NCBI GenBank assembly: GCA_018660505.1
Contig: JABJKE010000030.1
Span: 97,989 to 161,988 of the forward strand
DNA from: Rhodobiaceae bacterium
GTDB lineage: Bacteria > Pseudomonadota > Alphaproteobacteria > RS24
Direction of reading: 5' to 3'
Length of the DNA stretch: 64,000 nt
Shown: piece after piece, positions 20,872 through 62,778 of the stretch
How positions within the stretch are numbered: the first letter of the stretch is position 1
Layout: every line of letters begins with the position of its first letter
Made by a program: the position numbers and the translations under genes
The notes under the pieces: model-generated
The model's input: the letters and a program-made list of their open reading frames with translations, nothing else
Told to the model about the DNA's origin: nothing
Database searches by the model: none

Positions 20872-20941
20872 CAAAGTCATATTCAATATGAACACCAAAG
20901 CCCTCGAAACACGTTCTTTATTTAGTCAAACCCTTGTGGCC

Positions 20942-21016
20942 TCGCGCTAGAAGGGCTTGCCAACTTGTTGGCTTAGCCCGCTTTGCGCCAGCGGAGGGGC
21001 GAAGCCCCGTAGTCGG
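20942..21016. repeat. dispersed REP-like hairpin repeat, copy 1
   Basis: Aligns with 42033-42108; hairpins GGGCT-t-GCCAA(CTTG)TTGGC-tt-AGCCC and GGGGC(GAA)GCCCC. Confidence 0.8.
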
Positions 21017-21049: not shown

Positions 21050-21136
21050 TGGTGGCCTCGGACGGACTCGAACCGTCACGCCCATTCGGGCCGCAGATTT
21101 TAAGTCTGCTGTGTCTACCGATTCCACCACGAGGCC
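21050..21136 (-). tRNA. tRNA-Leu (anticodon TAA), CCA encoded
   Basis: Minus strand: GGCCTCG TGGTGGAATCGGTAGACAC AGCAGACTTAAAATCTGC GGCCCGAATGGGC GT GACGGTTCGAGTCCGTC CGAGGCC ACCA; class II variable arm. Confidence 0.96.
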
Positions 21137-40865: not shown

Positions 40866-42041
40866 ATGTTCGTTAATTTTTTCCATGAGCTGAAAAACGC
40901 CAATGTGCCCGTCTCCTTGCGCGAATATTTATCGCTGCTCGAAGCGCTGGACCATGAGGTCATTCAAAACGAAGTGACCGAGTTTTATTATTTGTCGAAA
41001 GCCGCCCTCGTCAAAGACGAACGCAACCTCGATAAATTCGACCAAGTTTTCGGCACCGTGTTTAAAGGGCTGGAGAGCTTGGGCGATGGCGAGGTTTCGG
41101 AAATTCCCGAAGACTGGCTGCAAACGCTGACGGAAAAATTCCTCTCGGAGGAAGAAAAAGCCGAAATTGAAGCGCTCGGCGGCTGGGACAAAATTATGGA
41201 GGAGCTGAAAAAGCGCCTCGAAGAGCAAGAAAAACGCCACGAAGGCGGCAATAAATGGATTGGCACCGGCGGCACCTCGCCGTTTGGCTCGGATGGCTAT
41301 AACCCCGAAGGCGTGCGCATTGGCCAAGACAAGAATAAAAACTTCAAAGCGGTTAAAGTCTGGGACAAGCGCGAATATAAAAACCTCGACGACAGCGTCG
41401 AGCTGGGCACGCGCAACATCAAAGTAGCGCTGCGCCGTTTGCGCCAATTCGCGCGCGATGGCGAAGCCGATATGCTGGACCTTGATGACACCATTAAATC
41501 GACCGCCAATGCCGGCTATCTCGACATTAAAATGATCGCCGAGCGTCGCAACCGGGTGAAAGTTCTGGTGTTTTTCGATATCGGCGGCTCGATGGACCCG
41601 CATATTCGGCTTTGCGAAGAGCTGTTTTCGGCCGCGCGCAGCGAATTTAAAAACATGGAATATTTCTACTTCCACAATTGCCTCTACGAAGGCGTGTGGA
41701 AAGACAACAACCGCCGCCACAACGAAAAAATGGATACATGGGACGTGCTGCACACCTATGGCAGCGACTATAAAATCATCTTCGTGGGCGATGCCTCGAT
41801 GAGCCCCTATGAGATTACCTATGAGGGCGGCAGCGTGGAACATTGGAACGAAGAAGCGGGCGCGCTATGGCTGAAACGCCTGACCGATATCTACGAGAGC
41901 GCCATCTGGCTGAACCCGCTGGGCGAACGCTATTGGGAACACACGGCCTCGCTGCAAATTATTAAGCAGATTTTCTCAGATAGAATGTATCCGCTGACCA
42001 TTCAGGGGCTGGATGAGGCTATGCGGGAGTTGTCGCGCTAA
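40866..42041 (+). CDS. VWA domain-containing CoxE-like protein
   Basis: KVLVFFDIGGSMDPHIRLCEELFSAARSEFKNMEYFYFHNCLYEGVW; paired with MoxR upstream. Confidence 0.9.
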   Translation: MFVNFFHELKNANVPVSLREYLSLLEALDHEVIQNEVTEFYYLSKAALVKDERNLDKFDQVFGTVFKGLESLGDGEVSEIPEDWLQTLTEKFLSEEEKAEIEALGGWDKIMEELKKRLEEQEKRHEGGNKWIGTGGTSPFGSDGYNPEGVRIGQDKNKNFKAVKVWDKREYKNLDDSVELGTRNIKVALRRLRQFARDGEADMLDLDDTIKSTANAGYLDIKMIAERRNRVKVLVFFDIGGSMDPHIRLCEELFSAARSEFKNMEYFYFHNCLYEGVWKDNNRRHNEKMDTWDVLHTYGSDYKIIFVGDASMSPYEITYEGGSVEHWNEEAGALWLKRLTDIYESAIWLNPLGERYWEHTASLQIIKQIFSDRMYPLTIQGLDEAMRELSR

Positions 42042-42108
42042 AAGCACCTGCCAACTTGTTGGCTTTGGTGCGCCTTGCGCCAGCGTAGGGGCGCAGCCCC
42101 GAAGTCGG
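42033..42108. repeat. dispersed REP-like hairpin repeat, copy 2
   Basis: Aligns with 20942-21016; GCACC-t-GCCAA(CTTG)TTGGC-ttt-GGTGC and GGGGC(GCA)GCCCC; overlaps the VWA gene stop codon. Confidence 0.8.
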
Positions 42109-42239: not shown

Positions 42240-42333
42240 GTCGCAGTCGCCCGCCCCTCAAAACGGGTCGCCAACAGCTCACGCCGTTGGACGTTGGGGG
42301 GATGAATTACCGACGAACCTATTTTGCCACTAT

Positions 42334-62714: not shown

Positions 62715-62778
62715 CAAGCTAATGACAAGAGAAGCCTGATGGAGAACAAGCTAATGACAAGAGAAGCCTGATGGAGAA
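62715..62778. repeat. perfect 2 x 32-bp tandem duplication
   Basis: CAAGCTAATGACAAGAGAAGCCTGATGGAGAA twice: 62715-62746 and 62747-62778. Confidence 0.97.

Follow-up and report, generated by a model that had tools for sequence, protein, structure and literature searches.

Two copies of a hairpin element in the window

The window is a stretch of 64,000 nucleotides from one contig of a Rhodobiaceae bacterium whose assembled genome comprises 1.77 Mb in 46 contigs. It carries two copies of a composite hairpin element. Copy 1 lies beside a tRNA-Leu(TAA) gene, recognized by both ARAGORN and Rfam (RF00005), and copy 2 lies at the end of an open reading frame (ORF) of 391 amino acids. From inspection by eye, we take the product of this ORF to be a VWA/CoxE-type protein encoded downstream of a MoxR-type ATPase. 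Copies were scored with two covariance models, R1 for the whole element and R2 for its first hairpin (module A) alone. The features are as follows.

20934..20944, + strand: left target duplication (TTGTGGCCTCG), a detached piece of the tRNA-Leu 3' end in opposite-strand orientation; the direct repeat (91% over 11 nt) stops precisely at the 5' boundary of module A
20942..21016, + strand: copy 1, whole element (module A + module B), R1 score 100.1 bits
20945..20989, + strand: copy 1 module A, R2 match 63.4 bits, supported by pair counts
20945-20947/20985-20987, + strand: copy 1 basal stem
20953-20957/20975-20979, + strand: copy 1 outer stem, GGGCT/AGCCC
20959-20964/20967-20972, + strand: copy 1 inner stem
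20996..21008, + strand: copy 1 module B hairpin, GGGGC(GAA)GCCCC
21050..21060, + strand: right target duplication (TGGTGGCCTCG), the second member of the direct repeat, which forms the 3' terminus of the intact tRNA-Leu gene
21050..21136, - strand: tRNA-Leu(TAA), host gene of copy 1
40866..42041, + strand: ORF of 391 aa, host gene of copy 2
42033..42108, + strand: copy 2, whole element (module A + module B), R1 score 91.9 bits
42036..42081, + strand: copy 2 module A, R2 match 57.5 bits
42039..42041, + strand: TAA stop codon of the copy 2 host gene (ORF 40866-42041), provided by the element's conserved TARAAG loop; the sister species without the element ends in SRG*
42044-42048/42067-42071, + strand: copy 2 outer stem, GCACC/GGTGC
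42088..42100, + strand: copy 2 module B hairpin, GGGGC(GCA)GCCCC

The two aligned copies, 20942-21016 and 42033-42108, had been pointed out in a sequence-only reading of the window, and its description of them is accurate. The inner hairpin GCCAA(CTTG)TTGGC, which can alternatively be read as six pairs closing on TT, is the same in both copies; three of the five outer-stem pairs (pairs 2, 3 and 5) are changed on both sides; and a GGGGC(GNA)GCCCC hairpin comes next in each. The 34-nt 3' half has two exact matches in the 64-kb window versus none expected from shuffled sequences. A chance origin of the similarity is ruled out by these shuffles, by the pair counts and by the covariation tests given below. 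The folding free energy of one copy is unremarkable (z ~ -1.4), and the evidence for structure therefore comes from covariation, not from stability.

Two other repeats occur in the window. Just downstream of copy 2, at 42265-42293, lies a second dispersed hairpin repeat, GGGTCGCCAACNGC..ACGCNGTTGGACG, which is separate from the A/B element; exact copies of it are also present in at least three further species of the genus (G002, G003 and G007), and near matches elsewhere. A perfect 32-bp tandem duplication, CAAGCTAATGACAAGAGAAGCCTGATGGAGAA, occupies positions 62715-62778.

Modular architecture and covariation of the stems

The unit of the element is either module A alone (~47 nt) or A followed by a second hairpin, module B (~75-85 nt). 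Module A consists, in order, of a CGC basal arm, a TARAA loop, a 5-bp outer stem, the inner hairpin, a GCYTT loop and a GCG basal arm, giving a basal stem of 3 bp, an outer stem of 5 bp and an inner stem of 5-6 bp around the internal loop TARAA/GCYTT. It is followed by module B (GCC-AGCG-hairpin-GAAGTC-GGC), by the AAGCGAGG...CGAGACG variant of B, or by an inverted A. The 5' foot is CGC-TARAAG and variants of it, with TAAAA in 105, TATAA in 36 and TAGAA in 16 of 178 copies; neither a GTAG nor a CGTC foot was found in these copies or in their consensus.

Over ~180 copies all three stems covary strongly. Pairing of the outer stem holds in 96.9-99.5% of cells, confirming that it is kept in copies outside the window, and the 3-bp basal stem also covaries (CGC/GCG, CGG/CCG, GGG/CCC, GGC/GCC and GAC/GTC). 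Among 80 and 92 distinct rows, 91-92% of cells pair and all 14 pairs of A show two-sided changes in some copies. The covariation score is 0.64-0.67, against 0.23 for shuffles and at most 0.13 for slid pairings (about three times the shuffles and at least five times the slid pairings), figures that overstate independence because the rows were fitted to the covariance model and the copies are related. The first MAFFT alignment, of ten sequences, gave the same answer. The loop bases are also correlated: G6 occurs with T43 in 13 of 14 copies and A6 with C43 in 87 of 96, the pattern expected for interchangeable wobble pairs, so a G.U/A.C wobble is possible. Pair counts and covariation thus substantiate a dispersed hairpin family in which pairing is kept far better than sequence.

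The earlier proposal that structure is selected over sequence calls for caution. Beside tRNA-Ser(CGA) in G010 lies a 123-bp tandem array (L056:2002-2537) whose repeats are 96-100% alike in most units; its hairpin stems occur in two quite different, fully paired versions. Between units 2 and 5 the stem is changed at 10 of 29 positions and is still paired, whereas the adjoining repeat is changed at 2 of 78. Stepwise compensation could hardly produce this pattern; whole arms have been replaced in this array, and they seem to have been exchanged as blocks, or different A copies seem to have entered the same site. Compensatory changes therefore indicate that pairing is required, not that each pair was selected singly, and some of them may reflect exchange among copies rather than stepwise selection.

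Distribution across genomes

In this group of alphaproteobacteria with small genomes, the element is dispersed well beyond the two loci of the window. A covariance-model scan found at least 14-19 copies in the window's own genome, and the R1 and R2 scans recovered copies in all 12 genomes of the genus, at least 3-24 in each, these per-genome counts being lower bounds from 150 scored candidates per genome. In the rest of the family its presence is patchy (at least six copies in G013, three in G014, and one each in G018 and G022). A class-wide draw of 240 genomes, scanned with stricter filters than those used for the genus, gave three matching genomes: the window's own, G013 and one outside the family. 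The last of these (G135, from another family of the class) has two A-hairpin matches (L244 and L245), perhaps through horizontal transfer or a misplaced contig. The matching genomes are alphaproteobacterial, mostly metagenome-assembled genomes (MAGs), and are labelled Rhodobiaceae, Phyllobacteriaceae or Alphaproteobacteria. With Rfam, only tRNA scored above the gathering threshold and no credible match covered the element; no similar DNA was found among phage and plasmid records. Literature searches, whose reach excluded most subscription papers, did not find the same element.

Location at gene 3' ends

The copies lie mostly outside coding sequence, and inverted pairs occur. Sixty-one of 178 distinct copies are within 250 nt of a tRNA gene. 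Among 26 same-sense copies located 3' of tRNAs, 15 begin directly at the tRNA end, usually right after CCA, and the tRNAs so abutted comprise Met, four Ser, Leu, Tyr and Arg isoacceptors. Some copies run antisense to a tRNA, others lie within the 5' half of tRNA-Ser copies, and others again belong to arrays of several units. Of the copies remote from tRNAs, 36 terminate a sense ORF of 120 aa or longer and one terminates an antisense ORF, although the independent number is smaller, as several of these copies belong to the same gene in different species. The ORFs stop mostly at element positions +1 to +8, and by +43 at most sites; exact abutment extends to stop codons. Judged by eye, the host genes presumably encode HemF, cytochrome c1, RpoH, thioredoxin reductase and GltD.

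Empty sites and target duplications

The same gene end carries the element in some species and lacks it in others. Copy 2 is missing from the corresponding gene in G010 (99% identical protein) and in G004, where the reading frame runs uninterrupted to ...SRG*. Likewise, among the cytochrome-c1-like and HemF-like genes, some species have the element at the gene end and others a plain stop codon.

Direct repeats of the host site, 11-99 bp long and free of mismatches up to 71 bp, border many copies. For 33 of 164 copies, a sequence of 14 nt or more stops precisely at the 5' boundary of A and reappears after A or B; the same holds for 14 of 464 shifted controls, some of them probably located within the arrays that contain the copies. 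Perfect examples measure 71 nt (L147), 40 nt (L057), 24 nt (L129) and 24 nt (L041). At a lepA-like gene end in G008, a 52-nt duplication surrounds the element and the gene end is intact; G000 and G010 have a single end. Genes survive the insertion because duplication leaves the gene body with one of the two ends still attached, and copy 1 of the window, with the intact tRNA-Leu 3' end on one side and its detached piece on the other, is such a case. At the same tRNA-Leu in relatives, two tandem units are present in G010 and a composite in G004.

Comparison with the empty sites in relatives revealed no target duplication at copy 2, which indicates that one simple insertion chemistry does not cover every case. 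We also considered whether the basal stem arm is always derived from the target. At 5 of 27 sites the basal arm has the same triplet as the target, where 1.75 would be expected (p ~0.005); this supports such a rule weakly, and the rule was not retained.

As a separate observation, a duplicate of the initial 14 nt of tRNA-Ser(GGA) lies upstream of the gene, followed by hairpin A, in L057:1614-1751, L197, L212 and L214. The same 14-nt duplication with hairpin A is found in genera g3 and g4 of the family.

Proposed origin and mobility of the element

We interpret the element as a lineage-specific family of small non-autonomous mobile hairpins that insert at the 3' ends of genes or beside them and frequently duplicate a long target stretch of variable length; we place the probability of this reading at roughly 0.7. 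New copies would enter at or beside gene 3' ends, where the target duplication of 11-99 bp would leave one intact tRNA or gene end. The form recognized at insertion may be the folded single strand, widely spaced nicks followed by fill-in may produce the duplications, and insertion would be carried out by a candidate trans-acting nuclease or recombinase, or by host repair machinery. Given the tRNA targeting and the duplications, a Cas1/casposase-type enzyme is a conceivable candidate. Arms would be exchanged between copies through conversion or template switching. Most likely, the candidate enzyme joins the hairpin, folded as a single strand, at widely spaced nicks close to the 3' ends of genes. 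In the one interval between closely spaced copies that was inspected by eye for a parent element, no obvious transposase was seen.

Copying by host repair alone is the main rival to enzyme-driven joining. Template switching or fold-back synthesis at stalled forks could yield tandem duplications with a captured hairpin, with later conversion swapping the arms, and the target-element-target arrangement could likewise have come from tandem duplication instead of transposition. Such errors would account for duplications that are long and variable (11-99 nt), for stem arms replaced as blocks and for the agreement of target triplet and basal arm at 5 of 27 sites, and they accord with the failure to find a Y1 transposase or reverse transcriptase. 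However, copies that abut tRNA ends and stop codons exactly and share a fixed 5' boundary suggest an insertion end that is defined, and the element is restricted to a lineage whereas error processes are universal, which makes an origin without a dedicated enzyme rather unlikely. We consider it improbable that the hairpin is a selected cis-acting RNA serving the 3'-end stability, processing or termination of mRNAs and tRNAs. Its sense orientation at gene 3' ends, the stop codon in its loop and its covariation, including the possible loop wobble, would suit that role, but it is patchily present at orthologous genes, essential ones included, some of its copies run antisense to tRNAs, lie within the 5' half of tRNA-Ser copies or form arrays of several units, and neither a T-run after B (by eye) nor an Rfam match was found.

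The sequence-only reading had likened the element to REP sequences moved by RAYT (TnpA-REP) enzymes. In favour of REP/REPIN elements, the palindromes are small and imperfect, their 5' foot is conserved, inverted copies occur in pairs and most copies lie outside coding sequence. The foot, however, is of the TARAAG type and not GTAG, and the long flanking duplications are unlike REP/IS200-type movement. A search for the Y1/RAYT transposase gave no PF01797 match in 12 genomes of the genus and 13 others of the family, with control genomes positive, and no reverse transcriptase (PF00078) was found in the 12 genus genomes. Most of these genomes are fragmented MAGs, in which the absence of an enzyme is weak evidence taken alone; the completeness argument leans on G010 (100% complete, three contigs), in which neither Y1_Tnp nor reverse transcriptase was found. 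Mobilization by a RAYT is accordingly very improbable.

Under the mobile-hairpin reading, a bolder version, which we regard as speculative, would make the 47-nt hairpin a new minimal form of mobile DNA: its fold would be the sole recognition signal, an enzyme with no relation to RAYT or to reverse transcriptases would insert it precisely at tRNA 3' ends and stop codons while duplicating up to ~100 bp, and its arms would be swapped as blocks between copies. REP-like repeats without an accompanying transposase occur in many bacteria, and how they spread has yet to be explained. In the present family, insertions that look recent and have perfect duplications, together with empty sites in close species and a sharp 5' boundary, make it possible to work out the insertion chemistry. 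It also illustrates that compensatory changes between repeat copies can come from block replacement and are, alone, no proof of stepwise selection on a functional RNA.

Comparison with known systems

Integron attC sites are imperfect hairpins with internal loops that are recognized by fold and not by sequence, lie at gene 3' ends and often contain the stop codon. The hairpin family resembles them in all but the mode of recognition, which in our case is conjectural; unlike attC, its copies are dispersed at unrelated chromosomal genes, and no RYYYAAC/GTTRRRY boxes were seen by eye. A classical MITE has a short duplication of fixed length and the terminal inverted repeats of a DDE transposon; the duplications described here vary from 11 to 99 bp. 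Elements of the IS200/IS605 type make no target duplication, unlike many copies of the hairpin, copy 2 being one that has none. Variable-length duplications are shared with retro-elements that use target-primed reverse transcription; given that PF00078 is absent from the 12 genus genomes, a reverse transcriptase would have to come from a source outside them, which is conceivable.

GTAG REPs and REPINs, which are mobilized by RAYT (TnpA-REP), have a single-stranded foot and are recognized as folded single-stranded DNA (PMC8266576, PMC3116915). Like them, the present element is a hairpin with a conserved foot, forms inverted pairs, is mostly extragenic and is dispersed in many copies, at least 3-24 per genus genome; unlike them, it has target duplications and lacks both the GTAG foot and a RAYT. 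CGTC-tagged REPs are small palindromic dispersed repeats, frequent in Alphaproteobacteria, with an unpaired CGTC (or TGTC/CCTC) foot, a plain stem of 8-9 bp and a loop of 4-5 nt (PMC3733652). Heterogeneous stems and loops, dimers and the lack of a known dedicated transposase are common to both families, whereas the TARAAG/GCYTT internal loop, three stems, second hairpin module, preference for tRNA ends and long target duplications set the present one apart. The Rickettsia palindromic elements are likewise small and alphaproteobacterial, enter genes without destroying them and move in an unknown manner (PMC3767692). They can sit in frame inside proteins, whereas the hairpin family terminates genes, mostly within its first 8 nt, or duplicates their ends, and favours tRNA ends. 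The hairpin family belongs with the REP-like small palindromic repeats in the broad sense, and its defining features are those of neither GTAG REPs, CGTC REPs, IS200/IS605 derivatives nor Rickettsia palindromic elements.
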